DNA of 34,967 nt from a virus: IMG/VR virus record IMGVR_UViG_3300029319_006748, positions 1 to 34,967 of that record; one strand, given 5' to 3'. The notes below the pieces were generated by a model that saw only the letters and a list, made by a program, of their open reading frames with translations, ran no database searches and was not told where the DNA came from. Shown one piece after another: positions 1 through 13,822 of the stretch. Each line of letters starts with the position of its first letter. Position 1 is the stretch's first letter. A program made the position numbers and the translations under genes.

Positions 1-6
1 TCTTTT

Positions 7-279
7 ATGCCGTCTAAAAGCATGAAGATTCTGATGACAAACTTTGGAGTCATGCCAGTTACAGACAACAACTCCATTTCAAAGTCTTTTAATTTTTGGA
101 CTGGTCACACAAACTTTAATATCTCAGACTCCGTATCTAAAGACATACAGTCAGTGGAAGGCGTTGAAGCCCTAGACATCTACACAAGGTACAGATTTAG
201 AATAGCCATAGGCAAGTTGTTCAAAGATAGGGATGTCATGCATCGTATACAAGAAAAGCTGAAAGATGGCCAAGTCTAG
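7..279 (+). CDS. Hypothetical phage protein, possibly 5'-truncated by the window edge
   Basis: The first ATG is at position 7 and no stop precedes it in the six bases available, so the gene may begin to the left and 90 residues is a minimum. The protein is soluble-looking, with mixed charge and no membrane segment, Cys cluster or motif that I recognise. Its last 14 bases overlap the start of the ClpP-like gene, so the two are probably co-translated. No function is proposed. Confidence 0.6.
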   Translation: MPSKSMKILMTNFGVMPVTDNNSISKSFNFWTGHTNFNISDSVSKDIQSVEGVEALDIYTRYRFRIAIGKLFKDRDVMHRIQEKLKDGQV

Positions 280-895
280 AACGCTGAACCAAAAACATTC
301 TCTTGTTCAAGATATACATGAATATGGCATAAATCTAGATACAAGGGAGATATTTCTACATAGCCACCTCTCTTCAGATGAAGAGGCGGGTGTTGACTAC
401 AAGTCTGCAGTAAAATTTGAGAAAAATATCAGTGTGCTAAACAGCTTCTCGTCCGCTCCAATTACTGTCCATATGCACATCATAGGTGGTAGTTGGCACG
501 ATGGTATGGCCATGTATGACTGCATAAGGCTCTCAAAAAGCCCGATAACAATAAAAGGCTTTGGTCATGTAGGCTCAATGAGCAGTATTATTCTTCAAGC
601 TGCACATAAAAGATTGCTGGCTAAAAGCTGTGAGTTTCTAGTTCACTTTGGAAACATAGGATTGGATATGAATTCTATGGCGGCAAAATCAACTATAGAA
701 TGGAACGAAAAATGCAACTCTTTGATGCTCGATATATACTCACACAGATGTAAAGACTCTGAGGCATTTGAAGGTAAGCCAGCGTCTTACATAAAAAATT
801 ATATAAAGACAAAAATAAAAAACACTCAAGAATGGTTTATGACAGCTGAAGAAGCTATTTACTACGGCTTTGCGGATAGTCTGATAAAAGAGTAG
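266..895 (+). CDS. ClpP-like (S14 family) serine protease
   Basis: The 209-aa protein has the ClpP/crotonase fold signature. An oxyanion Gly-Gly segment lies near residues 74-75. The nucleophile Ser104 sits in a GSMSS context, His127 in LVHFG, and Asp204 in YGFADSL close to the C-terminus, matching E. coli ClpP Ser97, His122 and Asp171. The triad is therefore complete, and the length is close to a ClpP monomer. In phages, S14 proteins can be prohead proteases; free ClpP homologues also occur in aquatic phages. No portal or major capsid gene is visible beside it, so I cannot choose between head maturation and a modified Clp protease. The start ATG overlaps the preceding gene, and the next gene begins 2 bases after the stop. 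Confidence 0.8.
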   Translation: MAKSRTLNQKHSLVQDIHEYGINLDTREIFLHSHLSSDEEAGVDYKSAVKFEKNISVLNSFSSAPITVHMHIIGGSWHDGMAMYDCIRLSKSPITIKGFGHVGSMSSIILQAAHKRLLAKSCEFLVHFGNIGLDMNSMAAKSTIEWNEKCNSLMLDIYSHRCKDSEAFEGKPASYIKNYIKTKIKNTQEWFMTAEEAIYYGFADSLIKE

Positions 896-897
896 AC

Positions 898-1545
898 ATG
901 GAAAAATTTATAAGTCTGTACCATCAGCCAGTTCATAGCAGGGATGTTATGGAGGCTTGCTTCTTTTGTGTAGAACATAGTCTTTCCGGAATCTCAGTTA
1001 CTCCTGACATGCTCCCAAAAGCAAGAGACTTATTAGCTGGCGATTTCCTTTTGTCTTCTTGTGTGGACTTTCCCGGCGGGTTATCTTCGTGTGATGTTAA
1101 ATGTCACATGGCAATTAGCAATATAAGGAAAGGAGCCAACTGCATAGACTTCGTGGCTAACCCTTCTTACTTGTTAAATTCAAATGACCTAATAGAGTTT
1201 AAGGATGAAGTCAGTTCAGTCTTTGACATATGCATAGAAAGAAATGCTGTATTCAGAGTGATGATTGACTATAGGTTCCATACAAACAGAAAAATAATAA
1301 GTATTTTTAATGTCCTCAAAGAGATAGGCGTACAGAACTGTTTCCTATCAACAGGATATTTTTCAGACGACATAACAGACCAAATAGCATTAGCCAGATA
1401 TGCGGGCGATATATGCAATATGAATGTAATATATAATGGCAGGCTATGGTCGATAAACCATTATAATAAAATACAAGATGCTGAGTTATATGGAGCTTGC
1501 TTCAAATCTTTACGTTCTTATAAGTCCACTTTTGGTGTATTATAA
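898..1545 (+). CDS. DeoC-like aldolase-fold protein, catalytic lysines not conserved
   Basis: The 215-aa TIM-barrel protein resembles deoxyribose-phosphate aldolase. The segment VDFPGGLSS corresponds to the DeoC beta-strand 2 region, GANCIDFVANPSYL corresponds to the ADEVD/IDMV strand and keeps its Asp, and FLSTGYF corresponds to KTSTG. The Schiff-base lysine of DeoC (E. coli K167, two residues before STG) is Phe here. The position of the second lysine (K201, KPAGG) reads YNGRLW. The family fold is therefore fairly clear, but classical class I aldolase chemistry is unlikely. It may be a non-catalytic scaffold, or an enzyme with altered chemistry. It begins 2 bases after the ClpP-like gene. 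A 64-base gap follows, after which the probable virion protein starts. Confidence 0.65.
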   Translation: MEKFISLYHQPVHSRDVMEACFFCVEHSLSGISVTPDMLPKARDLLAGDFLLSSCVDFPGGLSSCDVKCHMAISNIRKGANCIDFVANPSYLLNSNDLIEFKDEVSSVFDICIERNAVFRVMIDYRFHTNRKIISIFNVLKEIGVQNCFLSTGYFSDDITDQIALARYAGDICNMNVIYNGRLWSINHYNKIQDAELYGACFKSLRSYKSTFGVL

Positions 1546-1609
1546 GTGTGGGAAAGGACTTTTTCATTAGGAAAATAGGAAAAATACTTACTAAGAAAGT
1601 GGAAAGAAA

Positions 1610-2287
1610 ATGGCTTTACCATATACTACTCAAATTGACGGAAGTTCCGTCACATCAAGCTCCACCAAAGATAACGGTGGTGTAATCCGTCATGGAGGAA
1701 CTGTTCCTGCTGACAGAAATCTAACAAGTAAAGACCTTGGTGCTACCCTTGGCGAAAACGTAGGTTCTAAAGTAGCTGACACTGCTGATACGGATAAATC
1801 GGTCAGCGCAGGTACTTTTGCCGACAATGCCGGAGAAGCTCAGGTAAGACTTGTAGGTAATGTTAATTATGATGCTGGTACTAGAAATAGAAACAGCTTC
1901 ACAGTAGCAGGTCAGACAGCAGACGCCCTTAGAGGTGGTGCTGGGTACGCTGATGCTCGTGGTATTCCAAAGCGTGATACAATTAGAACAGTAAAGACTG
2001 CTTCAGCTATCAGAGCTGGTCACTGGATTGCGTTTGGTATTCCCGGCAAAAGCACTAACTGGAATGTTGACCCAACTGGCGATGTCACTGGTATGCACGA
2101 CATATCGACAGGCACCGCAGCAACAGATGGAGCTGACAACGCAGCTAATGGAATCGGCGCACCTCACCAAAACGGTGGAACGCTTACGTTTCATTCTGGA
2201 AGACTTGGATTGCCAACGAATACTCTTAGCCAAATGGGTAATGAGTCTCGTGCAGTTTATAAGCCAAAGAATGGTACAGATTCTTAA
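1610..2287 (+). CDS. Putative virion (head decoration or appendage) protein
   Basis: The 225-aa protein is rich in Gly, Ala, Thr, Asn and Asp and poor in Cys, with many short polar repeat-like stretches. This composition is typical of phage surface beta-structured proteins. I do not recognise a family. It is set apart from neighbours by a 64-base purine-rich leader (GGAAAG/AAGAAAG before the ATG) and is followed by a strong hairpin, as expected for an independently and strongly expressed structural gene. TATAAGTG at 1541 faintly resembles a late-promoter box, but no good -35 goes with it. The structural role is inferred from composition and context only. Confidence 0.55.
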   Translation: MALPYTTQIDGSSVTSSSTKDNGGVIRHGGTVPADRNLTSKDLGATLGENVGSKVADTADTDKSVSAGTFADNAGEAQVRLVGNVNYDAGTRNRNSFTVAGQTADALRGGAGYADARGIPKRDTIRTVKTASAIRAGHWIAFGIPGKSTNWNVDPTGDVTGMHDISTGTAATDGADNAANGIGAPHQNGGTLTFHSGRLGLPTNTLSQMGNESRAVYKPKNGTDS

Positions 2288-2296
2288 TTTTAACTT

Positions 2297-2325
2297 GACT
2301 GAGCAGGGTTTCGGCCCTGCCAGTC
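2297..2325 (+). terminator. Strong stem-loop downstream of the putative virion gene
   Basis: The arms GACTG-A-GCAGGG and CCCTGC-CAGTC form 11 base pairs with one bulged A around the six-base loop TTTCGG. It starts 9 bases after the stop codon of the upstream gene. The following bases (TCTTACTCTT) are only moderately T-rich, so it may be a weak terminator, an RNA-stabilising 3' hairpin or a processing site rather than a full Rho-independent terminator. Confidence 0.55.
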
Positions 2326-2350
2326 TCTTACTCTTAAAAAGGAGACCCTA

Positions 2351-2530
2351 ATGGGTACTAAACTTAAAAACCTTGTTAAATCTAGACGCTTCTGGGTTGC
2401 TGTAGCCGGTGTCGTAGCTGTCACCGCACAAGCACTTGGATTTGAAGTATCTTCAGAAGTAGTTACTAACGTAGTTATTATCGGAGCTTCTTGGATTGTT
2501 GGAGAATCGCTTCGGTCTTCTGACAACTAA
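2351..2530 (+). CDS. Small membrane protein, 59 aa (holin-like or membrane-anchored)
   Basis: This short gene is preceded by AAGGAG about 5 bases before the ATG. The protein starts with a basic stretch (GTKLKNLVKSRRF) followed by a hydrophobic segment at about residues 15-30 (FWVAVAGVVAVTAQAL), and a second hydrophobic stretch at about residues 39-52 precedes a short polar tail. The pattern of a basic N-terminus ending in RRFW, two hydrophobic helices and a small size recalls small phage membrane proteins sometimes called holin-like. It lies between the hairpin and another small membrane protein, which supports a lysis or envelope role but does not prove it. Confidence 0.7.
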   Translation: MGTKLKNLVKSRRFWVAVAGVVAVTAQALGFEVSSEVVTNVVIIGASWIVGESLRSSDN

Positions 2531-2541
2531 CGGACAAGAAA

Positions 2542-2811
2542 ATGCCTTTATTTAAAAAATTAAAAGATAAAAAAGAAGATACGGAGTCTTCCGCAGAGCC
2601 AGATGTCAAGGAAGACAAAAGGGACAAAAGAAGAAGTTTTAGGATTGAAAAGATACAAGCAATAACAGCCAAGGCCAAAGAGGTAGCTGGTAAGAGAAAA
2701 TGGCTTGCCATAATCCTAGGCCTTGGCATCGTTATTTACTTTCTAGTATCAGGGGGTGGGTTTTCTAAAATGCTCCCTATGATAGAAAATATAAAAGGAT
2801 TTTTTAATTAG
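2542..2811 (+). CDS. Small single-pass membrane protein, 89 aa
   Basis: The N-terminal 50 residues are very highly charged (Lys/Asp/Glu/Arg-rich, coiled-coil-like). One strong transmembrane helix follows at about residues 54-71 (LAIILGLGIVIYFLVSGG) and a short amphipathic tail ends the protein. No signal peptidase site is evident, so an N-in/C-out anchor is likely. It follows the 59-aa membrane protein after 11 bases, and its TAG overlaps the GTG start of the oxygenase gene. It could belong to a lysis or envelope module. No family is recognised. Confidence 0.65.
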   Translation: MPLFKKLKDKKEDTESSAEPDVKEDKRDKRRSFRIEKIQAITAKAKEVAGKRKWLAIILGLGIVIYFLVSGGGFSKMLPMIENIKGFFN

Positions 2812-3485
2812 TGATAAACGCTCAGGAACTGGCGTCCTTTTATGATAAGGACGGATATGCGCCTCACGAACTCATAGACAGCTTTATAACTCAGGAATTC
2901 TATGATAAGCTTTTAGATAGCTTTCCTCCTGATGAATTATTTCAAGATGAGTTTCCGGCAACTCGCAAGAGAAATCAGAGACCTCACTGTAGAAGGTTTA
3001 TGTGTTATCATGTAACACCTCAATCTAGGTACTTCGAGCCTTACTTCGTAGATGTCAAACAATTGCCTGAGCTTTGGCAAGAATTGTGTGATTATATCCT
3101 CTATGACAGAGAGTACAGAGACTGGATTAGAGATACTCTTTTGATACAAGATTTTCATATCCGGCTAGATTTTCATAGAACAGCTAAAGGCCTTGACGTT
3201 TCGCCTCATGTTGACAGTGCTGGCAAATATGGCTCACATCTATTTTATTTCACACCCAAACATTGGAAAGAAGAATATGGAGGAAATACTGTATTCTACA
3301 AAGGTAAAAAGATACAAGCTATGAATCCAGAGCCAGAAGACTTTACAGAAAGTATATATTATCCTATAATAGGTAATAAATCCCTTTTGTTTAAGAATGT
3401 TTCTTATGGCTGGCACGGTGTCAAGCAAGTTAATGCTGAGGGTATGCACAGACAGCTCTTCAATGTTGTAATTCTAAAGAAGTAA
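2811..3485 (+). CDS. 2-oxoglutarate/Fe(II)-dependent oxygenase (prolyl-hydroxylase-like)
   Basis: The 224-aa double-stranded beta-helix protein carries a facial triad HxD (His133, Asp135 in SPHVDS) and a distal His202 (GWHGV). Arg214, 12 residues further on (MHRQLFNV), probably binds 2-oxoglutarate. These define the 2OG-Fe(II) oxygenase family, whose members hydroxylate protein side chains or small molecules, with O2 and 2-oxoglutarate as co-substrates. The start is a GTG overlapping the previous TAG, and no ATG lies close by. The next gene, a radical SAM enzyme, begins 5 bases downstream, so the two oxidative enzymes form one unit with the GT25-like gene. The substrate is unknown; a phage protein or a sugar is plausible. 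Confidence 0.8.
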   Translation: MINAQELASFYDKDGYAPHELIDSFITQEFYDKLLDSFPPDELFQDEFPATRKRNQRPHCRRFMCYHVTPQSRYFEPYFVDVKQLPELWQELCDYILYDREYRDWIRDTLLIQDFHIRLDFHRTAKGLDVSPHVDSAGKYGSHLFYFTPKHWKEEYGGNTVFYKGKKIQAMNPEPEDFTESIYYPIIGNKSLLFKNVSYGWHGVKQVNAEGMHRQLFNVVILKK

Positions 3486-3490
3486 TATCA

Positions 3491-4528
3491 ATGGAAAAAA
3501 TTCTTACGCCGATGAATCTGGAAAAAAAGCTATTTTATCATGGCGATAAAGTAAGTCAGTATCTAGAGACCGGCGATACAACGCCTGTTATGTGGGAGCT
3601 AGACCCAACTAATCTGTGTAACCATGAGTGCATAGGTTGTTTTGCAAAAGGAGCGGGTGGTAGAACAAACAATGAGACTCTTAAGCTAGAGCAGGCTAAA
3701 AGCTACATAGACCAAATGGTTGCTATGAAAGCAAAAGGAATTAGCTTCACGGGAGGAGGAGACCCGATGGTCTTCAAGTATACTCCACAGCTTATAGAAT
3801 ATGCCAAGTCTCAAGGCCTTGATGTTGGTATGGTCACTAATGGCACACTATTCAAGACAGATGAGTCAATAGATATTGTAGTCAAAAATAACTCTTGGGT
3901 TAGGGTTAGTATAGATGCTGGTAGCCATGAAGTTTATACAGCGATAAGAAGAGTTCCAAGTCCCGGACCTGCAGGTTTAGATACAGCATTTGCAAACATG
4001 ACTAAGCTAGCTAAAAGGAAGAAAGAGCTTGGTACTGACATTACTATCGGGGCAGGTTTTTTGACAAGCGAGCTTACAAACCCAGATATGGTCGCCGCGA
4101 CAGAGATGTGTAAAGAGGCTGGGATTGACTACATTCAGTTTCGTCCATTCCATGGAGACGGAACAATACCAGAGTACATAGATGAGTGTAGGGCAATGCA
4201 GACAGAGGACTTCAAAGTACATCTCTCTGAATTTAAATATGATACAAAATATAAAAAGCAATACGATAAATGTAGAGGGCAAAGCTTTAGTGGTGTAATT
4301 AATGTGCACAAAGTTTATGTTTGTTGCCATCTAAGAGGTATAGATAAATATGAGCTTGGAGACCTAAGAGAAAATACTCTTGAAGAGATATGGAACTCTG
4401 ATAGGAGGCAACACGTCATAAATAACATAGACTTCAATGACTGTATAGCACTCTGCAAGCTTGATTGTGTGAATAGGCAGCTACATCATATCACAATAGA
4501 CAAGCCTCAGCACACAAACTTCATCTAA
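3491..4528 (+). CDS. Radical SAM enzyme with SPASM-like C-terminus
   Basis: The 345-aa protein has the radical SAM cluster motif CxxxCxxC at Cys43, Cys47 and Cys50, a glycine-rich SAM-binding segment (FTGGGDPM), and further conserved-looking barrel strands. The C-terminal quarter contains several cysteines (DKCRG, VCCHL, NDCIALCKLDC) arranged like a SPASM/twitch auxiliary Fe-S domain. Such enzymes modify peptides, proteins or sugars by radical chemistry. It is sandwiched between a 2OG-Fe oxygenase and a GT25-like gene, with which its stop overlaps (TAATG). A joint modification pathway is inferred; the substrate is unknown. Confidence 0.85.
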   Translation: MEKILTPMNLEKKLFYHGDKVSQYLETGDTTPVMWELDPTNLCNHECIGCFAKGAGGRTNNETLKLEQAKSYIDQMVAMKAKGISFTGGGDPMVFKYTPQLIEYAKSQGLDVGMVTNGTLFKTDESIDIVVKNNSWVRVSIDAGSHEVYTAIRRVPSPGPAGLDTAFANMTKLAKRKKELGTDITIGAGFLTSELTNPDMVAATEMCKEAGIDYIQFRPFHGDGTIPEYIDECRAMQTEDFKVHLSEFKYDTKYKKQYDKCRGQSFSGVINVHKVYVCCHLRGIDKYELGDLRENTLEEIWNSDRRQHVINNIDFNDCIALCKLDCVNRQLHHITIDKPQHTNFI

Positions 4529-5262
4529 TGAAATCTTACATAATTTACAACTCTCCTGACATAGGCACCAAATACAAGGCAAAAAACCTGTTATCATCTC
4601 TTAATGACTTAGGTTATGATGCCGAGTTATTTGATGGCGTTTGGCATACTCAGTCGGATAAGTTTTGTCAGGACAGAGGTATTAACTTATATAAAGAATG
4701 GATTCAGAGTTCTGAATACCATATCAATAAAGGCACTGTTGATAAATTTATAAGAACATCTAGCACGCCTCAAAACAAAGGATGCTTTTGTTCTCATTTT
4801 CTTCTATGGGAAATGTGCCTTTCTCAGCAGTCTGCTATCTGCATCTTTGAGTACGATGCGATAATTAAGTCAAAGCTTCCTATAAATATACTTGATATGT
4901 TTGACGAGGCTATAGAAATATGTAGAGCTCCTGTTTATGATAAGGCTCCGTATGACAAAGTTAATGAAGACCCTAATTTCATTGACTATCAAGCCATAGA
5001 CTATCCAACTCCCGGATATGCAAGAGGCAACTCTACAGGGTATATACTTAAGCCGAAAGGAGCCGAGGCTTTGATAAATATATCTAAAAGCAAAGGTTAC
5101 TTATCTCTTGACACAATGTTAAATAGAGAGTGGTTAGATTATAAAAAGTTGATTCCCGGAGTAGCCACTAAAACACATGACTATTCGGTTGTAAATAAAA
5201 ACAAGTTTCATCAAAGCAGGCAATTTAGAAAAAAGCTAGAGAGAAATGACAAAACAATTTAG
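4528..5262 (+). CDS. Glycosyltransferase family 25-like protein
   Basis: The 244-aa protein resembles the LPS-biosynthesis / procollagen galactosyltransferase (GT25) group. It has an early KNLLSSLNDLGYDAELFDG segment, a GCFCSHFLLWEMC helix, and ICIFEYDAII in the position of the family's EDDA-type metal/nucleotide-sugar motif. A second block (GNSTGYILKPKGAEALI) matches the family's G-x-x-GY-x-i...A pattern. Because one acidic residue of the usual EDD is Tyr, the activity is probable but not certain. It starts on the last A of the radical SAM stop codon. Confidence 0.7.
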   Translation: MKSYIIYNSPDIGTKYKAKNLLSSLNDLGYDAELFDGVWHTQSDKFCQDRGINLYKEWIQSSEYHINKGTVDKFIRTSSTPQNKGCFCSHFLLWEMCLSQQSAICIFEYDAIIKSKLPINILDMFDEAIEICRAPVYDKAPYDKVNEDPNFIDYQAIDYPTPGYARGNSTGYILKPKGAEALINISKSKGYLSLDTMLNREWLDYKKLIPGVATKTHDYSVVNKNKFHQSRQFRKKLERNDKTI

Positions 5263-5431
5263 ATACAGAACATCTTTCAACCCTGATATAGCAGCGGCCT
5301 TCTCAAAAAGCAACTGCAAGAACTGTTATGGAAAAGGGTATGTGAGTGGAACTACACCCGCAGGAGAAAAGTACACCAATTACTGCACATGCGTGAAGAA
5401 AGCGCTAAAAGCACAAAAAATTTCTTATTAG
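5246..5431 (+). CDS. Small zinc-ribbon protein (DnaJ-like CxxCxGxG)
   Basis: The 61-aa protein has Cys24 and Cys27 in CKNCYGKG, the signature of half a DnaJ-type zinc site, and Cys47/Cys49 in YCTCVKK as the partner pair. It therefore probably folds around one zinc ion. It overlaps the end of the GT25-like gene by 17 bases and is the last gene before the non-coding leader region. The partner and role are unknown. Confidence 0.65.
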   Translation: MTKQFRYRTSFNPDIAAAFSKSNCKNCYGKGYVSGTTPAGEKYTNYCTCVKKALKAQKISY

Positions 5432-5471
5432 CCACTTTTTCTTGGTGTATTTATACTTAGCTGGAAACCTG

Positions 5472-5485
5472 AGCGAATCTTCGCT
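5472..5485 (+). other. Short hairpin AGCGA-AATCT region-TCGCT
   Basis: AGCGA at 5472-5476 pairs with TCGCT at 5481-5485 across a four-base loop. It sits just upstream of the larger inverted repeat in the 5432-5654 non-coding stretch, so that stretch has several adjacent paired elements rather than random spacer. The hairpin is too small to be significant alone. Confidence 0.35.
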
Positions 5486-5503
5486 AGAGCGACACATCCG
5501 GCA

Positions 5504-5531
5504 TTGCAAAGGTGTCTTAGTCCGTTATAAT
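5504..5531 (+). promoter_or_regulatory. Putative sigma70-type promoter (TTGCAA - 16 bp - TATAAT)
   Basis: A perfect -10 box TATAAT lies at 5526-5531 and a 4-of-6 match to the -35 consensus (TTGCAA, 5504-5509) is 16 bases upstream. The site is in the 223-base gap upstream of the 53-aa gene and nrdAB. Transcription would begin near 5538 and run through the mini-ORF and the terminator at 5594-5636. It would thus make a roughly 100-nt RNA, or the operon if the terminator is bypassed. Confidence 0.5.
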
Positions 5532-5546
5532 TTATAAGCAGCAAAC

Positions 5547-5573
5547 ATGAAGAACGGCTTTGACCCCAGATAA
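5547..5573 (+). CDS. Possible 8-codon leader peptide
   Basis: ATG AAG AAC GGC TTT GAC CCC AGA TAA would encode MKNGFDPR between the putative promoter and the terminator. There is no convincing Shine-Dalgarno (AGCAGCAAAC precedes it), and an ORF this short arises easily by chance. I list it only because of its position, which is where a leader peptide would be expected in an attenuator. Confidence 0.15.
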   Translation: MKNGFDPR

Positions 5574-5593
5574 GTGTCGCTTTTTTAAAACAC

Positions 5594-5636
5594 GACCTTG
5601 GATGCTAAATACTGTTGCGTCTGAGGTCTTTTTTTT
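5594..5636 (+). terminator. Rho-independent terminator
   Basis: The arms GACCTTGGATGC (5594-5605) and GCGTCTGAGGTC (5617-5628) form a continuous 12-bp stem with three G-U wobbles around an 11-base loop. Eight T residues (5629-5636) follow directly. It stands 18 bases before the 53-aa gene, so polymerase must pass it to express the RNR operon from any promoter visible upstream. That position makes an attenuator role possible. Confidence 0.75.
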
Positions 5637-5654
5637 ATATACTAGGATTTGAAC

Positions 5655-5816
5655 ATGAAGAAACAGCAGTCGCCTAGGATTGAGATTGTTCTTGTTGAAA
5701 GAGACGGAAGAGGAAATCCAATAGGCAAAAAGAAATCTTTTGAATCTGACAAAGGCCGAGAAGTCTTTGATTTTTTACAAAACACAAAACCAAGAAGAAA
5801 GCGTCGAGAAAAATAG
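5655..5816 (+). CDS. Small basic protein, 53 aa
   Basis: The ATG at 5655 is preceded by AGGA with an 8-base spacer, right after the terminator. The protein has a short beta-like segment (RIEIVLVERDGRG), a second segment with charged residues around KKKSFESDKGREVFDFL, and a strongly basic tail (PRRKRREK), which suggests nucleic-acid binding. Its TAG shares its last base with the GTG start of nrdA, so translation is probably coupled. No family is recognised. The reading frame is supported by its start, its spacing and the absence of any other gene here. Confidence 0.65.
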   Translation: MKKQQSPRIEIVLVERDGRGNPIGKKKSFESDKGREVFDFLQNTKPRRKRREK

Positions 5817-8248
5817 TGGCTGAGCAAAAAGTAAAGAAACGTAACGGCAGACTGGAAGACATCAACCTTGATAAGATTAATAAATGCGTAGAAAGAGCAT
5901 CTGAGGGTCTTGATTCTGTTTCTCCTAGCGAGGTGGTTTTAGATGCCAGCTTGCAGATTTACAACAAGATACCAACCGCAGAAATAGACAAAGCCTTGAT
6001 TATGTCCGCTCGCTCTAAGATAGAGAAAGAGCCTAACTATAATTATGTAGCTGCCAGAATATTGCTTAATAACCTTTACAAAGAGGTGTTTGGAAAGAGC
6101 GTAGACTGTCAGCTTGAAAAAGAGTACAGAAGCTGCTTTATTAAAAACATCAAGACTCTGGTAAAAGAAGACAGGCTTTCTCAAGAGATGCTCGGTTACG
6201 ACCTAGAAATGCTTAGTGAAAGCCTAGATATAGAGAGAGATAAAAATTTCAAATATCTTGGAATACAAACTCTTTATGACAGATACTTTATCCACAAAGA
6301 AGGTAGAAGAATGGAAACTCCACAAGCCTTCTACATGCGTGTTGCTATGGGTCTTTGTCTTCAAGAAGAGAATAAAGAGGAAAAGGCAATACAAATTTAC
6401 AATATGATGTCTGAGTTTCGGTATTCTCCTTCCACTCCTACCCTCTTCAATAGTGGTACGTGCCACTCGCAGCTTTCGTCTTGCTACTTAAGCACGGTAC
6501 ATGATTCAATTGATGGCATTTTTGGCACTATCCATGGGCAGGCTAGGTTGTCAAAATATGCAGGAGGTTTGGGCGTAGATTGGAGCTCTGTCAGGTCTAC
6601 TGGAGCTTACATAAAAGGTACAAATGGGCAGTCATCTGGCTTGATTCCTTGGTTGAAAATATTCAATGACACTCTTGTAGGCGTTAACCAAGGAGGAAAA
6701 AGAAAAGGGGCTGGATGCGCATATCTAGAGGTGTGGCATATAGACGTTGAAGACTTTCTTGACCTGAGAAAAAACACTGGAGACGACAGAAGGCGCTGTC
6801 ACGATATGAACACAGCTCTTTGGGTTTGTGATGAGTTTATGAAAGCCGCCAGAAAAGATGATGACTGGTATCTGTTTGACCCTTCTGAATTTCCATCGCT
6901 ACATGAAACGTATGGAAATGAGTTCTCAAAAGAATATAGAAAAGCTAAAAGACTTGCAAAAGACGGCAGTGTAAAAAGCTTCCGTATTATCTCAGCAAAA
7001 GAGCTTTGGAAGAAGATGCTTAAATCTCTTTATGAGACTGGTCATCCGTGGATTACTTTTAAAGACCCCTCAAATATAAGATATAGCAACAAGCATGAAG
7101 GCGTAGTACATTCCTCGAATCTATGCACTGAAATACTGCTTCATACAAAGCCAACTACGTACCAACAAGGTGAGGTTGTAGAGACCGGCGAGACTGCTGT
7201 TTGTAACTTAGCGAGTGTCAATCTTGAAAGTCATGTTAAAGTTAGAACATTAGACTGGAAGAAGCTACAAGAGACCGTCGAGGTCGCGGTTAGAGGTCTT
7301 GATAATGTTATTGATATAAACTTTTACCCTACAAAAGAAGCTAAAAATTCTAACCTACGTCACAGGCCTGTTGGGTTAGGCATTATGGGTACTCATGGAA
7401 TGCTCCATAAACTTGGTATTGCCTATGACTCAAAAGAAGCTGTAGAATTGTGTGATAAAATTCAAGAATATGTTTCTTACTATGCGATACTAACTTCATC
7501 AAAGCTTGCTAAAGAAAAAGGCAGGTATGAAAGTTACGAGCACTCAGAATGGAGTTATGGTAATTTACCAATAGATACTTACTGTAGGCTTATGAGAAAT
7601 AGAACTGGCCAAGAGTTCCATATTTCTGATTTTGAGACAATGGATTGGAATAAGGTCAGAGCCCATATCCGTGAGCACGGAATGAGAAACTCAAACGTAA
7701 TGGCAATTGCTCCTACAGCTACAATCTCCTACATACAAGGTTGTAGCCAGTCTATAGAACCAGACTATTCGGTATTGTTTGTATATTCGACATTGAGTGG
7801 CGAGTTCACTATGATTAATGAGCACTTCGTTGAGCTTGCAAAAAAGAAAGGTATTTGGTGCAAAGAGCTAGTTGATGCTCTAAAAGCAGCTGATGGAGAT
7901 GTACTTTCCATTGACTTAGATGAAGAATTCAAAGAGCACTTCAAGACTGCTTTCGATATTAGCTACGAAACACTTGTAGATGCAGCCGCAGCTAGACAGA
8001 AATGGATTGACATGGGTCAGTCTTTTAATCTTTATAATAAAGGAACAAGTCTTAAATACCTTAATGACATGTATAACTACTGCTGGGATAAAGGGTTGAA
8101 AACAACTTACTACCTAAGAAGCAAGTCTGCAACCAGAGTAGAAAAATCAACAGTAGAAGAAGTAAAAGAAGAAGATAGTGTTGCAGAGGACTTAAGTAAT
8201 GTTAAAGCCTGCGCAATAGATAATCCAGATTGTGAGAGTTGTCAATAA
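5816..8248 (+). CDS. nrdA: Ribonucleoside-diphosphate reductase, class I large subunit
   Basis: The 810-aa NrdA reduces ribonucleoside diphosphates to deoxy forms together with NrdB. An N-terminal ATP-cone lies at about residues 5-100 (KKRNGRLEDINLDKINK), so allosteric activity control by ATP/dATP is expected. Active-site cysteines are Cys223 (LSSCYL), the thiyl-radical Cys437 (SSNLCTE) and Cys463 (TAVCNLAS). The radical-transfer tyrosine pair is in KTTYYLRSKS. The C-terminal redox pair is in CAIDNPDCESCQ and would be reduced by a thioredoxin or glutaredoxin. The GTG start overlaps the preceding stop, and no better start exists because the ATP-cone begins immediately. The stop overlaps the nrdB ATG. 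Confidence 0.97.
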   Translation: MAEQKVKKRNGRLEDINLDKINKCVERASEGLDSVSPSEVVLDASLQIYNKIPTAEIDKALIMSARSKIEKEPNYNYVAARILLNNLYKEVFGKSVDCQLEKEYRSCFIKNIKTLVKEDRLSQEMLGYDLEMLSESLDIERDKNFKYLGIQTLYDRYFIHKEGRRMETPQAFYMRVAMGLCLQEENKEEKAIQIYNMMSEFRYSPSTPTLFNSGTCHSQLSSCYLSTVHDSIDGIFGTIHGQARLSKYAGGLGVDWSSVRSTGAYIKGTNGQSSGLIPWLKIFNDTLVGVNQGGKRKGAGCAYLEVWHIDVEDFLDLRKNTGDDRRRCHDMNTALWVCDEFMKAARKDDDWYLFDPSEFPSLHETYGNEFSKEYRKAKRLAKDGSVKSFRIISAKELWKKMLKSLYETGHPWITFKDPSNIRYSNKHEGVVHSSNLCTEILLHTKPTTYQQGEVVETGETAVCNLASVNLESHVKVRTLDWKKLQETVEVAVRGLDNVIDINFYPTKEAKNSNLRHRPVGLGIMGTHGMLHKLGIAYDSKEAVELCDKIQEYVSYYAILTSSKLAKEKGRYESYEHSEWSYGNLPIDTYCRLMRNRTGQEFHISDFETMDWNKVRAHIREHGMRNSNVMAIAPTATISYIQGCSQSIEPDYSVLFVYSTLSGEFTMINEHFVELAKKKGIWCKELVDALKAADGDVLSIDLDEEFKEHFKTAFDISYETLVDAAAARQKWIDMGQSFNLYNKGTSLKYLNDMYNYCWDKGLKTTYYLRSKSATRVEKSTVEEVKEEDSVAEDLSNVKACAIDNPDCESCQ

Positions 8249-9255
8249 TGAAAAAAAATAAAGAAATTATATCAGATAAAGTTGCGGTTGTAAACCAAAT
8301 TCTACCTCATACAAATAAATGGGCATGGGATTTGTTTATAGATGGCGCTGCGAATAACTGGATGCCTACAGAAGTTTCAATGGCTAAAGATATTGAACAA
8401 TGGAAAGGCAACAGTCTGTCTAATGAAGAGAAGCTTGTTGTAAAAAGATGTCTTGGTTTTTTTGCTGGCAGTGAGTCTCTTGTTGCCAATAATCTGCTGT
8501 TGTCAATATTTAAGTTTGTTACGGACGCAGAGTGCAGACAGTACATATTGCGTCAGGCCTATGAAGAAAGCTTGCACAACCTGACTGTTGTTTACTGTTG
8601 CGACTCTCTTTCTCTAGATATTGATGAGGTTTATCAAGCGTATAACTCTATTCCGAGTATCAAAGCAAAAGACGATTTCCTAATGGAAATATCTACAGAC
8701 ATTAATCGGCCCGACTTTAACATCAACACGATTGAAGGGAAAAGAGAATTTCTGAGAAACCTTATTACTTACTATGTTGTGTGCGAAGGAATTTTCTTCT
8801 ACTCTGGCTTTGCAATGTTGCTTTCTTTTAATAGGCAGAACAAGTTGCCGGGAATTGGTGAGCAGATACAGTACACACTAAGAGATGAAAGCCTCCATAT
8901 TAAGTTTGGTACTACGCTAATAAATAGAATCCGTGAAGACAATCCTCGCATATGGACAAAATCATTTGAGCTAGAAACCATGCAACACATACAGAAAGCC
9001 ATGGAACTGGAAATTGACTATGCCAAAGACGTGCTTCCAAACGGCATATTAGGGCTAAACTCTGAGATGTTTATTGAGTATATGTCTTTTATTGCTAATA
9101 GAAGGCTCACGAATCTTGGGATAGAGTCTCCCTATAAGGATGCTCAAAACCCGTTTTCTTGGATGAGTGAAATTATAGATTTGGAAAAATGCAAAAACTT
9201 TTTTGAGACAAGAGTAACTGAATATCAAGTAGCTAATATAGAAGATGACTTTTAA
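8248..9255 (+). CDS. nrdB: Ribonucleotide reductase small subunit, class Ic-like (no radical tyrosine)
   Basis: The 335-aa ferritin-like R2 protein has metal ligands Glu76, Glu107, His110, Glu180, Glu214 and His217. The spacings 76-107 (31) and 180-214 (34) are identical to E. coli R2 D84-E115 and E204-E238. The first ligand is Glu, not Asp, and the position of the radical Tyr (His110 + 4, residue 114) is Val, with Tyr at 116. This matches the class Ic pattern of Chlamydia R2 (E89, F127, Y129), where a Mn/Fe cluster replaces the tyrosyl radical. The C-terminus (YQVANIEDDF) is the usual R1-binding tail. I prefer the ATG at 8248, which overlaps the nrdA stop, over the in-frame TTG at 8239. Confidence 0.95.
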   Translation: MKKNKEIISDKVAVVNQILPHTNKWAWDLFIDGAANNWMPTEVSMAKDIEQWKGNSLSNEEKLVVKRCLGFFAGSESLVANNLLLSIFKFVTDAECRQYILRQAYEESLHNLTVVYCCDSLSLDIDEVYQAYNSIPSIKAKDDFLMEISTDINRPDFNINTIEGKREFLRNLITYYVVCEGIFFYSGFAMLLSFNRQNKLPGIGEQIQYTLRDESLHIKFGTTLINRIREDNPRIWTKSFELETMQHIQKAMELEIDYAKDVLPNGILGLNSEMFIEYMSFIANRRLTNLGIESPYKDAQNPFSWMSEIIDLEKCKNFFETRVTEYQVANIEDDF

Positions 9256-9944
9256 TGGCAAGAAAAACACCTAAATACCTGAAGGACGGCTATACAGAGG
9301 ATAAGAAAGTTTACCTAAAAAACAGGCTCGAAGCTAAGAGTGTAAATCAAAAACATTATATTAAGTCAATATATAAAAATGATATAACTTTTTGCGACGG
9401 CCCTGCCGGAAGTGGAAAGACGCATATAGCTGCTGCGTGCGCAGCAGAGTTTATGAAAAAAGGCATAGTTGATAAAATAGTGATAACTAGGCCTGTTATG
9501 TCTGCGGGTGAGGATATTGGCTTTTTGCCGGGAACTGCTGATAGAAAGCTGCATCCTTATATGCTGCCTGTCTTTGATGAGCTAAGCTACTATGTGTCTA
9601 GGCAGCAAATATCATCTTGGAAGAACGAAGGTGCTTTGGAGGTAGCTCCTGTAGGCTTTATGAGAGGTCGTTCTTTCCATAATGCGGTTATAATTGGTGA
9701 TGAGTGCCAGAATCTTTCTATGGAACAAATGAAAATGTTCTTGACAAGAATGGGCAAAAACTCTAAACTAATAGTAACCGGCGATATATCTCAGTCAGAT
9801 TTGCCTGACTTTAAGAAGGGAGCATTTCAAAACTGTCTGGACAAACTTGATGGTCTAGAAAAGGTTGGTGTTGTCTACTTGAAGAAAGAGGATATTGTCA
9901 GAAACTCTATTATTCCAAATATCATTGAAAGACTTGAACAATAA
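9255..9944 (+). CDS. phoH: PhoH-like P-loop ATPase
   Basis: The 229-aa protein has Walker A GPAGSGKT (residues 49-56), Walker B with the PhoH-type VIIGDECQN motif, and the downstream conserved TGDISQSDLP segment. PhoH-like proteins are common in aquatic phages. Their role is unsettled; phosphate-stress ATPase and RNA-related helicase/nuclease roles are proposed. The ATG shares its first base with the last base of the nrdB stop. The protein is close to the size of the PhoH ATPase domain alone, so no extra PIN or KH domain is fused. Confidence 0.92.
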   Translation: MARKTPKYLKDGYTEDKKVYLKNRLEAKSVNQKHYIKSIYKNDITFCDGPAGSGKTHIAAACAAEFMKKGIVDKIVITRPVMSAGEDIGFLPGTADRKLHPYMLPVFDELSYYVSRQQISSWKNEGALEVAPVGFMRGRSFHNAVIIGDECQNLSMEQMKMFLTRMGKNSKLIVTGDISQSDLPDFKKGAFQNCLDKLDGLEKVGVVYLKKEDIVRNSIIPNIIERLEQ

Positions 9945-10366
9945 TGCCAGAATACTCGTATATTTGTGATGAAGACAATGAAGGGTGCGGTCACTACTTT
10001 ACAGTGTTTCAAAAATTGTCAGAATACAAACTTCTTAAGAGGTGCCCAAGCTGTAAAAAGCATAGACTGAGAAGAGCGTATGAAGATGATATTGCTTATG
10101 GCTCTGTTAAAAAGTCAGACGGCGCAATAACAATCGGGCATCTAGCTGATAGAAACAGTTCAAGAATGAGCTCAAGTCAGAAGGCTGAGCTTCATGCTAA
10201 GCATAATGCTTATAAAGCTAAGGGTGGCTCTCTGCCTGATGGCATGAAGAGAGTTGAGAAAAGTTCTGAAAAGCCTTGGTATAGGACATCCAATCAGTCT
10301 GATATTAAAAATATGACAGAGACACAGAAAAAGAATTATATAAGGACAGGAAATAAAAATGGCTAA
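9944..10366 (+). CDS. FmdB-family zinc-ribbon protein
   Basis: The 140-aa protein opens with MPEYSYICDEDNEGCGHYF and a second pair, RCPSCKK. Cys8, Cys15, Cys34 and Cys37 probably bind zinc, as in FmdB putative regulatory zinc ribbons. The remaining 100 residues are polar, basic and probably flexible (Ser/Lys-rich, ending in MTETQKKNYIRT). It follows phoH with a one-base overlap and overlaps the next gene by 8 bases. FmdB proteins in phages have no established role; nucleic-acid binding is a reasonable guess. Confidence 0.7.
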   Translation: MPEYSYICDEDNEGCGHYFTVFQKLSEYKLLKRCPSCKKHRLRRAYEDDIAYGSVKKSDGAITIGHLADRNSSRMSSSQKAELHAKHNAYKAKGGSLPDGMKRVEKSSEKPWYRTSNQSDIKNMTETQKKNYIRTGNKNG

Positions 10367-10742
10367 CATTTCTAAAAATGAGATTGAGTCGTGCTTGGCT
10401 TCTCCGAAGAATAGCGATGAAAAAGCAACTTTGGAAGAAGACACCAGAGGCTCAGTGTGCTATACTGTAGGACTGGAAATCGTAAACGAATCCAGTAATA
10501 CCGCCTATGCAAAGCGTGTTGTTGTAAATGAAAAAGAAATACATTATATCAAACAAGATAGGTACGGCAATTTATTCAATCCACAGGGTATGTACTCAGA
10601 AAGAAACCAATCTCAAAGTACTAGATTTAGTAAGACTTGGGACTTCAGAGTTGTGACACCTAAAGCCTTTGATTTATACTTGAAATTTCTTGAAACTAAA
10701 AATGAAGCTTGGTTATCTAATGCAGAAAGAGAGTTGGCGTAA
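10359..10742 (+). CDS. Conserved-looking hypothetical protein, 127 aa
   Basis: I do not recognise a family. The protein has an acidic N-terminus, a central beta-rich stretch (SVCYTVGLEIVN...YAKRVVVNEKEIHYIK), a Tyr/Gly/Asn-rich loop, and a C-terminal helix. It looks like a single compact soluble domain. Its ATG lies in the 3' end of the FmdB gene and its TAA abuts the start of the HTH gene, which fits co-translation within the nucleotide-metabolism/replication operon. Confidence 0.6.
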   Translation: MANISKNEIESCLASPKNSDEKATLEEDTRGSVCYTVGLEIVNESSNTAYAKRVVVNEKEIHYIKQDRYGNLFNPQGMYSERNQSQSTRFSKTWDFRVVTPKAFDLYLKFLETKNEAWLSNAERELA

Positions 10743-11098
10743 TGGCTAGAGGCAAACTAACAAAATCAGAAAAATATATTATTGAGGGGATGAACAGAGA
10801 TGGTCATTCTGCTAAAGAGATAGCAAAAGAGATTGGCAGAACAGAGCCTACCGTTCAAAAAACGCTTGACGAAATGTCTGCACAGCGCAAGAAAAAGAAG
10901 AGAAAAGAGCAGGTAAAAAAGCAAGCCCCGAAAAGATTAACCGCAAAAGACATGATGATTAATGAGACAACGGCCAAAAGAGAAAGAGGCGTTGCAATCA
11001 TGACAAGAGCAGCATCATCTAGAGCCGACGAAACTAGACAGTCCGGCGTTTCCAGAACCTATACAAAAGCGGTACAGAAGATTAATCCAAATGAGTAA
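10742..11098 (+). CDS. Putative helix-turn-helix DNA-binding protein
   Basis: The 118-aa protein has a clear N-terminal HTH at about residues 6-42: SEKYIIEGMNRDGHSAKEIAKEIGRTEPTVQKTL, with the usual AKEIAKEIG / turn / TVQK recognition helix, as in sigma region 4 or response-regulator HTHs. A long Lys/Arg-rich linker follows (RKKKKRKEQVKKQ), then a tail with GVAIMTRAASSRADE. The linker suggests strong nucleic-acid affinity. It may be a phage transcription regulator acting with the sigma factor encoded later, but no target is visible. Its end overlaps the next gene by 8 bases. Confidence 0.6.
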   Translation: MARGKLTKSEKYIIEGMNRDGHSAKEIAKEIGRTEPTVQKTLDEMSAQRKKKKRKEQVKKQAPKRLTAKDMMINETTAKRERGVAIMTRAASSRADETRQSGVSRTYTKAVQKINPNE

Positions 11099-11513
11099 AC
11101 AAAAATTCCCATCTAGGTATTCTAGTGGGTCTTTTGTTACTGCCGCACAGTATATAGCTGAACTAATGTGTGAAAGACAGGCTTTACGCAAGAAGCTTGA
11201 CTTGCCTCAGAAGTTTTGGCAGATTGACCACTGGAAGAAGCCTTATAAAATCCAGCTAATAGCAGCTCAAGGCCTTCTTAAAATATATGAGCCAAAAGCA
11301 ATTCTTAATGCTTTGAAGGCAAGAGATGGCTCTAGCATATACTCCTTGCATGCTCCTCACCTTGATGATATAATCAAAAGGGAACAAAGGGCTCTACAGA
11401 CAAAACAACCTGCTGTAGAAAGCAAGATAAATAGGAAAAGCACGACTGAGCGCCCTAGAGACCATGTTGTCAAGAAAACGGCGTTAGGAAAGTTGAGGGA
11501 TTTAGATGACTAG
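11091..11513 (+). CDS. Hypothetical protein preceding RecA, 140 aa
   Basis: I do not recognise a family. The protein begins with SKQKFPSRYSSGSFVTAAQYIAEL. A mostly helical core is rich in Trp/Lys/Tyr around QKFWQIDHWKKPYKIQ, and the tail is basic and poorly ordered. Position and charge suggest a nucleic-acid-associated factor: it overlaps the HTH gene upstream and the recA-like gene downstream by 8 bases. No catalytic motif is visible. Confidence 0.55.
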   Translation: MSKQKFPSRYSSGSFVTAAQYIAELMCERQALRKKLDLPQKFWQIDHWKKPYKIQLIAAQGLLKIYEPKAILNALKARDGSSIYSLHAPHLDDIIKREQRALQTKQPAVESKINRKSTTERPRDHVVKKTALGKLRDLDD

Positions 11514-12522
11514 TGTAATAGAAAAAGACATTATCAAGCAATTTGGAGACGGAGTTATACGCTCAGGTTCTGCTGTTGTTGACTCAGAACTATTAGTGAT
11601 ACCTGTTTCTCCTGCTCTTAATTTAGTGCTAGGTGGAGGCATACCGGAAGGCAGTTTTATAACCTTCACTGGACAGCCTAAGTGTGGCAAGACAACAACG
11701 TCTCTGCATTTTGCTGCTAAGTGTCAGCAAGACGAGTATAAAGGCGAGCTTTGCCCAAATGGTAGAGAAGTCTTCTTCTTTAATATTGAAGGCAGACTTA
11801 AGAAAAGAGACTTAGAGGGCATAGAAGGTCTTGATTTAGATAGATTCCATGTTATTGGTTCAGAACCGGGAAAAATTCTTACTGCTGAAGATTATTTGTC
11901 TATAGCTGAAAAGACCATAAATAATGTGCCCGGCTCTGTGGTGATTCTTGATTCCTATTCTGCTTTGTGTACGGAAGCTGAAATCACATCTTCAATGGAC
12001 AAAATGCAAAGAGCTGATGGTGCAAAGCTGTTAGCAAAGTTTTGTCGCAAAGTTGCAAATGTAGTCCCTGTCAATAGAAACATAGTCATTGGAATTACCC
12101 ACCTGATGGGAAATCCTACAGGATACGGTGCTGCGTTTAAGGAAAAGTCTGGTCAGGCTGTTGCTTACCAAGTGGATGTCAAGTTAAGAGCAACAAGATT
12201 TTCGGCTTGGGAAGTTTCAGGAACACAGATAGGACAAACTATAGATTGGCAAGTGGTTACTTCTGCTCTTGGCCCTCCGGGAGGTAAAATCTCCAGCTAC
12301 TTAAGATACGGTGAAGGTATTGACGAGTGTACAGAATTAGTAATACTAGGCTCTGATTTAGGCCTAATAACAAAAGCTGGTGCTTGGTACAAGTTTGATT
12401 TTGTTGACTCTGAAGAAAAGCCTAAATTTCAAGGCGCAGAAAACTGCCGGATTGAACTAAATAGAAATGAGGAGTTGAGAACTAAGTTAATTGAGTCGAT
12501 GCACGAAATGTTGGGAATATGA
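11506..12522 (+). CDS. recA: RecA-like recombinase
   Basis: The 338-aa protein has the RecA core. The leader segment (PALNLVLGGGIPEGSFITF) precedes Walker A GQPKCGKTT at about residues 56-64. Walker B is VVILDSYSA at about residue 145, and the L2-like segment is replaced by a divergent THLMGNPTGYGAAFKEKSG loop. It lacks the long N-terminal helix and the acidic C-tail of host RecA and has the non-standard GQPKCGKT in place of GPESSGKT, so it is a phage RecA/UvsX-type strand-exchange protein and not a recent host copy. It probably drives recombination-dependent replication and repair. The stop overlaps the ATG of the nuclease gene. Confidence 0.88.
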   Translation: MTSVIEKDIIKQFGDGVIRSGSAVVDSELLVIPVSPALNLVLGGGIPEGSFITFTGQPKCGKTTTSLHFAAKCQQDEYKGELCPNGREVFFFNIEGRLKKRDLEGIEGLDLDRFHVIGSEPGKILTAEDYLSIAEKTINNVPGSVVILDSYSALCTEAEITSSMDKMQRADGAKLLAKFCRKVANVVPVNRNIVIGITHLMGNPTGYGAAFKEKSGQAVAYQVDVKLRATRFSAWEVSGTQIGQTIDWQVVTSALGPPGGKISSYLRYGEGIDECTELVILGSDLGLITKAGAWYKFDFVDSEEKPKFQGAENCRIELNRNEELRTKLIESMHEMLGI

Positions 12523-12926
12523 GAGTAATTGATTTAAACGGCGAATACTCAAATTGGAAAATAACTGGACACATACCTAAAGCTAACGATAAGAGGCTCA
12601 GGTCGCAGTACCATCTAAAAGCCAGAAGTTTGCTTAAAGAAATATATCCTACGTGTCCGATTCTAGAAGAGGTTCCAATATCCATAAGAAGGTCTGAGAC
12701 TTTGTTCTTGGACTTTTATATACCTTTACACTCTCTCTGTGTAGAGGTTCATGGAGAGCAGCATTACTCTTTCATTCCCCACTACCACGGGAACAGAATG
12801 GGGTTTGCAAAAGCCAAGAAGCGAGACAGAGAAAAGCTTGAATGGTGTGAGATTAACGGTATCACAGTCGTAGAATTTTCTTATAAGGACGATGAGAATG
12901 AGTGGCGAACAAGAATTGAAAACTAG
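12519..12926 (+). CDS. Vsr-like / PD-(D/E)XK-superfamily nuclease
   Basis: The 135-aa protein has LFLDFYIP with Asp65, then CVEVHGEQHY with Glu76, His78 and His82, followed by KKRDREKLEWCEINGITVVEF. This D...ExHGxxH pattern with a late RDxxKxxWC helix matches the Vsr-type very-short-patch / DUF559-like nuclease fold. A selfish (homing) or a recombination role is possible. The ATGA overlap with RecA and position inside the conserved operon favour a cooperating recombination or repair nuclease. Its last part overlaps the next gene by about 30 bases. Confidence 0.7.
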   Translation: MRVIDLNGEYSNWKITGHIPKANDKRLRSQYHLKARSLLKEIYPTCPILEEVPISIRRSETLFLDFYIPLHSLCVEVHGEQHYSFIPHYHGNRMGFAKAKKRDREKLEWCEINGITVVEFSYKDDENEWRTRIEN

Positions 12927-13401
12927 CACCAGTCCTGCCGCTGAAGAACTGAAGAAGTGGGACAGGATTCTTGATGAATATGAGACAAGAACAGGCCTGA
13001 TGCCTTTTATTCATGATTATACAAATACTGAGGCGATGTCTTTTTTGAACATGGACAGAAGGCAAATAGAAAAGCTAACTCCGGCAGACTGTGGCGCAGC
13101 ATCACTTGTGTTAAATGAGCTTGCGTTCCATATTCAAAGAGCGTACAATAGGGAGATGGCGAGGGTAAACTGGTCAGATAGCACGATTAAGTCAATACTC
13201 GCTACAGAAGTTAATAGCTACAAAGGCTATTCTTATGCGGAAAGATTACAGCAAGCAATAAGAGGCAACTCTCATGCTAGAAAACTTTGGAAGATAAATT
13301 TGTATGCGAAACAAAGAGCTGATAGACTTAACTTTTTGTCGTCAAGCATAAACAATAGGGTTGAAATTTTTCTTTCCATCCAGAGAACTAGGAGGACATA
13401 G
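12898..13401 (+). CDS. Hypothetical replication-block protein, 167 aa
   Basis: Two in-frame ATGs lie at 12892 and 12898. The AAGGA at about 12884 has a good spacer only for the second, so I use it. The protein is helical with repeated acidic/basic stretches and a conserved-looking centre (PADCGAASLVLNELAFHIQRAYNRE). It is not a recognised helicase loader, but it lies between the recombination genes and the zinc-ribbon/helicase genes, where phages often encode loaders or adapters. This is inference from context. It is followed directly by a strong AGGAGG for the next gene. Confidence 0.55.
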   Translation: MSGEQELKTSTSPAAEELKKWDRILDEYETRTGLMPFIHDYTNTEAMSFLNMDRRQIEKLTPADCGAASLVLNELAFHIQRAYNREMARVNWSDSTIKSILATEVNSYKGYSYAERLQQAIRGNSHARKLWKINLYAKQRADRLNFLSSSINNRVEIFLSIQRTRRT

Positions 13402-13402
13402 T

Positions 13403-13822
13403 ATGTTCGATGAAGAAACACAGCAAGCACTGTCCAGACTTTCTGAGGCTGACCTGACTAAGGTTAGCTTTATGATAAAGAAACTTGCAAAGAAGTCTTC
13501 TGTAATAAAACAAGATAAACCGAAGCAAGATAACTTTCATGTACAAAGCTCAAGCAAGAAAAATAGGAGTCCTGTTGTAGAGGATGGACAAAGACCAAAT
13601 CTTTTCCTGCAGATGGCAGAGTTTAACGAGCACAAAGAGGATGTTGAGATAGATAAACAACTATCTAAATTCCCTCCTACTCCACGTAACAGGAAAACCA
13701 CTCTGGTTGAAGTTACGTGTGCCGGATGTGGGAAGACTAAATCAGTCGCCTCTGCTTTAATCCCAGCAGATAAAAGCAGGTATCTATGCAACGATTGCCA
13801 AGTGAGAGGAGCGAGAGGGTGA
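13403..13822 (+). CDS. Zinc-ribbon protein upstream of the helicase, 139 aa
   Basis: AGGAGGAC at 13390-13397 precedes the ATG at 13403, which I prefer to the upstream in-frame ATG at 13361 that has no such site. The N-terminus is helical (ETQQALSRLSEADLTKVSF), the middle is basic and disordered, and the C-terminus holds a four-cysteine site: Cys106, Cys109, Cys129, Cys132 (CAGCGKTK...YLCNDC). It ends in TGATG overlapping the helicase start. A DNA-binding helicase accessory role is possible but unproven. Confidence 0.65.
   Translation: MFDEETQQALSRLSEADLTKVSFMIKKLAKKSSVIKQDKPKQDNFHVQSSSKKNRSPVVEDGQRPNLFLQMAEFNEHKEDVEIDKQLSKFPPTPRNRKTTLVEVTCAGCGKTKSVASALIPADKSRYLCNDCQVRGARG

Follow-up and report, generated by a model that had tools for sequence, protein, structure and literature searches.

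A pseudoknotted leader RNA, apparently of an undescribed family, ahead of phage RNR genes

Positions 5460-5586 of the window, by which we mean the entire virus record of 34,967 bases analysed here, are apparently a member of an undescribed RNA family. The element lies on the plus strand and has the form of a structured leader RNA, an H-type pseudoknot with a hairpin in each long loop and a T6 run at its end, as judged from two alignments of relatives (A1 and A5), covariation and a search model (R1). These relatives uphold the original prediction that the RNR operon is headed by a structured non-coding RNA and a terminator, and the feature is confirmed to be real and wider than had been described. 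Comparison of the relatives establishes that the fold is conserved, where promoter and terminator signals are placed and that the RNA is tied to several kinds of RNR. As to function, we lean towards a cis-acting RNR leader with regulated termination, which would decide whether transcription passes the terminator.

Fold of the leader RNA and covariation among relatives

In the window the region 5432-5654 folds with an energy of -59.7 kcal/mol, compared with -47.0 ± 4.1 kcal/mol for 200 shuffled versions (z = -3.1). No shuffle was equally stable, and the fold exceeds chance. The anatomy of the element consists of a TATAAT-like box, helix P1, a P2 hairpin, a core of GCTARA-RCGRCAC (GTTAAA in some copies), the P1 3' strand, a variable P3 domain and GTGTCGC, the last mostly followed by a T-tract. 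Because the RCGRCAC strand is enclosed by the P1 loop and pairs with a strand outside it, this arrangement is an H-type pseudoknot.

All of these parts can be placed on the plus strand of the window. Covariation identifies both strands of P1, GCTGGA at 5460-5465 and its partner TCCGGC at 5497-5502. The P2 hairpin (5472-5485) pairs AGCGA at 5472-5476 with TCGCT at 5481-5485 and was recognized when the 53 A1 sequences were folded individually. The 5' strand of the pseudoknot helix, (G)AGCGACAC, occupies 5487-5495 and is supported by covariation and by recovery of its partner. The 3' strand, GTGTCGCT, runs into T6 within 5574-5586 and constitutes the first terminator-like site, with a U-tract present in relatives as well. 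Between them lies the variable P3 domain (5511-5567), in which CCGTT at 5522-5526 pairs with AACGG at 5553-5557, together with an outer stem, an assignment that comes from folding and is weak for the window itself. The original prediction had noted that AGCGACAC at 5488-5495 and GTGTCGCT at 5574-5581 form a perfect 8-nt inverted repeat entering T6 (5581-5586). That repeat is present and conserved, but it is one helix of a pseudoknot and not a simple hairpin. From the strand order we also considered an HDV-like ribozyme. In the nested double pseudoknot of HDV a hairpin stands between the second helix's 5' strand and the 3' strand of P1. We rejected this identity because too few nucleotides lie between these two strands, only a few in A1 and A5 and a single one in the window.

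Covariation was assessed in A1, with 53 distinct sequences left after five minus-strand artefacts had been removed from 58 regex sequences, and in A5, with 66 distinct sequences. In A1 94% of cells were paired, compared with 36-51% when the partner was slid. A5 contained two-sided changes in 7 of 8 P1 pairs and 5 of 9 pseudoknot pairs, with 98.7% of the cells of the pseudoknot helix paired and a covariation score matched by none of 500 shuffles. The original prediction had named compensatory changes in homologous regions as its check, and across the relatives these occur in both P1 and the pseudoknot. Further pair types did not rise above shuffles, being reached by 269 of 500 in A1 and 89 of 500 in A5. 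Run unguided on alignment A2, RNAalifold predicted P1, where 8 of 8 pairs show two-sided changes; it did not call P2 there, and P2 rests on the individual folds. For P3, RNAalifold made a prediction in two subgroups that we selected, one of 12 sequences with two-sided changes in 9 of 11 pairs and one of 16 with such changes in 2 of 9.

The regexes demanded complementary pseudoknot arms, and the alignment rows are consequently biased towards that helix. This bias is reduced because 5' domains found by R1 also have the partner strand and because the arms in L124 and L114 are compensated. R1 was built from 37 relatives, with the window left out and with no partner-strand information. All 28 distinct R1 5' domains were followed by an 8-nt partner when G-U pairs were allowed, compared with 0.6% in shuffled DNA, where six of the 28 are R1 training rows, L007 duplicates another in truncated form and some of the loci had previously been found by searches using both strands. 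Watson-Crick pairs by themselves supplied the partner in 19 of the 28. The two compensated arm pairs, both first met by R1, read GTGACAC/GTGTCAC in L124 and AACGGCAC/GTGCCGTT in L114. Applied to the whole window, R1 gave its best match at 5458-5505 (23 bits, E = 0.0008), the next match scoring 12 bits.

Two further elements of the original prediction were not borne out by the relatives. GACAC at 5491-5495 is complementary to GTGTC at 5512-5516 as well in the window, and this alternative pairing had been taken to favour a switch with mutually exclusive pairings; it occurs in the window only, 1 of 57 elements, and that argument consequently falls. The 8-codon ORF from ATG at 5547 to TAA at 5573 is likewise not conserved. 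Some short ORF is present in 16 of the 57 elements, the window included, with differing sequence and place, and we rejected a leader-peptide attenuator because a conserved short ORF is missing.

Association with RNR genes

Downstream of the leader RNA the window encodes on the plus strand a 53-aa basic ORF (5655-5816, with the SD sequence AGGA at 5644-5647, 7 nt past the T8 run of a second terminator), nrdA for the class I RNR large subunit (5816-8248; PRK07207 above the NCBIfam cut-off), nrdB for the small subunit (8239-9255; PRK07209 above cut-off) and then a PhoH-like gene. The 53-aa ORF has no match in PHROG, NCBIfam or Pfam, and its tblastn relatives in other phages sit between the leader RNA and nrdA or nrdJ. 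A small basic ORF in the interval between the leader RNA and an RNR of either class was observed in several phages (5655-5816 in the window, 9572-9796 in L086 and, by eye, 12547-12852 in L251), and in L122 the interval before nrdJ (2390-3000) holds a small basic ORF together with an ORF that, from its look, we take to be thermonuclease-like. On the other side, a 61-aa CxxC-type ORF (5246-5431) lies immediately 5' of the leader; it has relatives at the same location in one phage subgroup, and family searches with it gave no match. Before it, just 5' of the leader, are ORFs for a radical SAM/SPASM protein and a family 25 glycosyltransferase-like protein (3491-4528 and 4528-5262). Elsewhere in the window DNA polymerase III alpha is apparently split into two ORFs (18386-20302 and 21817-23463), the first with the PHP and NTPase domains and the second with the finger, HHH and OB domains, and the ORFs between the halves include uracil-DNA glycosylase and exonuclease genes.

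A search with NrdB provided viral loci, of which the best 80 of 177 were used. Among the 71 of these with more than 150 nt upstream of nrdA, an element of the same anatomy was found in 54, plus the window, L045 and L047 having been added to the element set after the first pattern pass. The remaining 17 of the 71 loci with evaluable DNA upstream of nrdA gave no element, model search included. Loci fetched with NrdJ contained the element in 9 of 80 cases, and the 71 without it include several in which the upstream DNA is truncated.

Searches that used no protein information led to the same genes. Two-strand patterns retrieved 14, 25, 8 and 5 loci, and in 52 of 52 a same-strand gene for an RNR large subunit followed 22-610 nt 3' of the element, with the proviso that the patterns were built from RNR-adjacent copies and that many matches are contigs already in the NrdB set. 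The gene is nrdA in 44 of these loci and class II nrdJ in 8, and small ORFs intervene in some. A pattern of promoter plus 5' domain, blind to both the partner strand and RNR, retrieved 40 loci. The partner strand was present in all 40 and a detectable RNR lay downstream in 38; the two exceptions, L252 and L255, are truncated before RNR could appear, and RNR is present in L253 and L258, which are near-identical to them. Pattern p1 matched 52 loci, 28 with the pseudoknot partner and RNR at every one of these. The other 24 had neither partner nor RNR and were counted as chance. In pattern-found elements the RNA is adjacent to RNR wherever the locus is long enough.

At an E value of 0.05 or better, R1 gave exactly one match per positive record, in 31 of 50 and 14 of 14 records, the two sets sharing one record and having been chosen for holding RNR loci or elements. 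Positions were mapped for 29 of the first 31, and all are upstream of RNR on the same strand.

The RNR genes themselves differ in kind. NCBIfam assigns a PRK07207-type NrdA to the window, a PRK09103-type NrdA to L249 and L253, and NrdJ_Z to L254 and L250, while an RTPR-type NrdJ scores below the NCBIfam cut-off in L086, L245 and, as a fragment, L251. The leader RNA thus precedes two class I nrdA subtypes and two kinds of class II RNR. Upstream neighbours vary as well: the nearest upstream ORFs of the 57 elements, called mechanically and not curated, fall into 12 single-linkage clusters. One cluster is common to ten nrdJ loci, its L086 member being dCMP-deaminase-like, and another contains both L062 (nrdA) and L162 (nrdJ). 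At the level of sequence comparison the family shows one hallmark of riboswitches, a conserved structured domain in the 5' leaders of genes with related functions. The constant pairing with RNR despite the change of RNR class favours cis control of RNR dosage and argues against sensing of a class-specific cofactor.

In named phages nothing convincing turned up. The RNR loci of named phages L260-L264 and L096 have no element, and distant blastn of named phages with four relatives returned only one 48-nt match, in a Microviridae record. L095, named 'Acinetobacter phage MD-2021a', has no element either; its record (CAKLQH020000007.1) has the look of a bacterial contig, with rstA, rstB, yddE, LysR and TetR genes flanking nrdAB. 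One pattern, covering only part of the variants, was run over one genome per prokaryote species and gave a single match, in Vibrio maerlii. We rejected this as a bacterial copy since it lies opposite an ABC-ATPase-like ORF and has no model match, and took it as chance.

Promoter, terminators and passage to the RNR genes

The original prediction placed a promoter at 5504-5531 and a 5' end near 5538. The TTGCAA (5504-5509) and TATAAT (5526-5531) hexamers are indeed present in the window at a spacing of 16 nt, but only three of 57 elements (the window, L005 and L061) have a TATAAT within the RNA, and P1 and P2 lie upstream of the proposed site. A start at about 5460 is instead indicated by a -10 box matching in at least 5 of 6 positions just before P1 in 43 of the 57 elements, a rough count in that P1 was mis-assigned in a few rows, among them the window, which is not one of the 43. 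The corresponding box in the window is TATACT at 5452-5457, 2 nt ahead of P1, with GGTG at 5444-5447 upstream as in relatives. Together with TAGCCA at a spacing of 17 it forms the probable leader promoter found by consensus scan (5429-5457, plus strand; 9 of 12 matches), and transcription would begin at or near the first base of P1. Consensus scans by themselves say little, as they reported 55 promoter-like sites in positions 1-18000 compared with 43 ± 7 expected and 15 terminator-like sites compared with 12 ± 4.

The two terminators of the original prediction are both present in the DNA. Beyond the T6 site the window has a second, canonical intrinsic terminator (5594-5636, plus strand), in which GACCTTGGATGC at 5594-5605 pairs with GCGTCTGAGGTC at 5617-5628 through 12 pairs, three of them G-U, followed by T8 at 5629-5636; an equivalent hairpin exists in relatives. 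This hairpin is absent from the list of the terminator scan because its 11-nt loop exceeds the limit of that scan. At least 6 T occur in the 10 nt after the pseudoknot helix in 47 of 57 elements, a set that includes the hand-anchored L005, L114, L099 and L124. The 8 elements with fewer than 5 T all have a canonical hairpin terminator (L003 and L004 among them), and L186 has 5 T, a canonical terminator not being found there. Eight more hand-anchored elements (L245, L246, L248-L251, L253 and L237) extend the set to 65; of these a U-tract is seen in L248, a canonical terminator in six and neither in L245. In L245 (13400-13460; L257 has the same element) the pseudoknot is kept and no U-tract or terminator precedes nrdJ. 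Thus a recognizable terminator, either U-tract or canonical, is conserved in 63 of 65 elements, L245 and L186 being the exceptions. The attenuator originally proposed was a good first guess. Canonical terminators starting 10-17 nt past the pseudoknot were found in 28 of the 65.

Such counts would also be expected if the region were a plain, unregulated terminator that separates the RNR operon from the gene block before it and the remaining sequence were drift. We regard that reading as very improbable. It is already disfavoured by covariation, since the 5' domain and the pseudoknot covary across very different sequences, and the structure persists where the U-tract is lost and in L245, where no terminator remains at all.

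In 22 of 57 elements fewer than 50 nt separate the pseudoknot from the RNR start, which leaves no room for a promoter of its own. The SD sequence of L124 directly adjoins the U-tract, the DNA reading GTGTCAC-TTTTTT-AGGAG-ATAACG-ATG. From the placement of the terminators it follows that RNR transcripts from the leader promoter must pass a terminator in nearly all lineages. We propose that the leader would be transcribed from a promoter with its start at or beside the first P1 base, and that the nascent RNA would fold P1 and P2 first and P3 after. The emerging 3' strand, GTGTCGCT in the window, would then pair back into the P1 loop and close the H-type pseudoknot. In nearly all lineages this helix leads into a U-tract, has a canonical terminator 10-17 nt further on, or both, a short way before the first gene of the RNR operon, and RNR would be made only from transcripts getting past the stop. 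That this passage is regulated seems plausible to us; what is seen is terminators rather than regulation, and simple leakiness may account for it. Pairing between the 5' half of the terminator and the leader RNA, as an antiterminator would require, was not above chance in 28 elements (mean z 0.06). This result and L245 are the strongest ones against a textbook terminator riboswitch.

The missing antiterminator pairing would also suit a small RNA in its own right, about 125-180 nt long and bounded by its own promoter and terminator, which would act in trans on targets in host or phage. RNR would then be a neighbour and no more, expressed by leaky read-through or from upstream promoters. Both ends of the RNA look defined, by consensus, given the frequency of the -10 box at P1 and of the terminators (L245 lacking one), and the fold and core sequence are conserved beyond the needs of a plain attenuator. 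Yet RNR of four kinds follows every untruncated pattern-found copy while upstream contexts vary, and terminators 17-48 nt before the RNR start would throttle RNR without reason. We consider an independent small RNA rather unlikely, and return to the cis-acting leader in comparing the element with known RNAs.

Relation to known RNAs and a possible sensor

The original prediction recognized no known riboswitch family, and Rfam agrees, with no match to the window or to 15 relatives. At the gathering score the window gave no match, nor did its region 5380-5700 up to an E value of 10, and the 15 relatives gave only an ordinary tRNA in L122. A relaxed search of L168 and L049 returned sub-threshold hits only, the best being RF02617 SSRC10 (E = 0.02; 23.6 bits compared with a gathering score of 56). 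In the window and 15 relatives the covariance models for cobalamin and purine/2'-dG riboswitches and for other Rfam families found no member, that tRNA apart. We did not find the leader RNA described in the literature searched, which does not establish its absence from print.

AdoCbl (cobalamin) riboswitches are RNA leaders ahead of nrd genes. The phage leader differs from them in having no Rfam match and in preceding B12-type as well as non-B12 RNRs. The SAM-II and preQ1 classes are H-type pseudoknot riboswitches with expression signals at the 3' strand. The phage leader resembles them in both respects, but has hairpins in both long loops, a near-fixed second helix of 8-9 bp and no Rfam match.

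The put RNA of phage HK022 and EAR RNA are leader RNAs at the transcript start ahead of terminators, and they are not known to be tied to RNR. The phage leader is similarly situated, at a probable transcript start and ahead of terminators, but is tied to RNR and has no Rfam match. By analogy, it might act by processive antitermination, with the nascent RNA acting on the polymerase, alone or with a factor, such that transcripts from its own promoter pass the terminators and polymerases arriving from upstream are stopped. The near-constant 10-17 nt between the pseudoknot and canonical terminators that do not pair with it would fit such an activity, as would the window, where the RNA is a single copy heading a long co-directional block of mechanically called ORFs. 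Confinement to RNR operons would be unexpected for a general antiterminator, the window and 15 relatives have no Rfam match, and a literature search on put gave nothing. We judge this mechanism unlikely.

For a cis-acting leader of RNR genes there is a bacterial precedent. The 2'-dG riboswitch of Mesoplasma florum is described as a structured RNR leader that acts by transcription termination and has a mapped antiterminator helix (PMC12268651). The phage RNA is likewise a structured 5' leader of an RNR gene with terminators, but has no Rfam match in the window and no antiterminator pairing. The manA and wcaG motifs, structured RNAs with ties to metabolic genes, are described as nearly confined to marine metagenomes and cyanophages (PMC2864571). 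Unlike them, the phage leader adjoins other genes, those for RNR, and has no Rfam match.

We suggest that the pseudoknot, with its conserved A-rich loop, could be the sensor of a cis-acting RNR leader. Its signal would have to be common to every RNR type, such as nucleotide or dNTP supply or an infection-stage factor, and presumably not B12 or iron. Taken further, and tentatively, the sequence comparisons would be compatible with a new class of phage riboswitch in which an H-type pseudoknot senses nucleotide or dNTP supply, gates RNR of any class and is exchanged as a module before unrelated RNR genes.

Leaders of the L245 type, lacking a terminator, form a naturally occurring test of whether control can take some other route. 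If the RNA stays before RNR across the change from class I to class II, it would be a class-independent controller of RNR, and the leader RNA would offer a testable handle on whether phages sense the cell's supply of DNA precursors.
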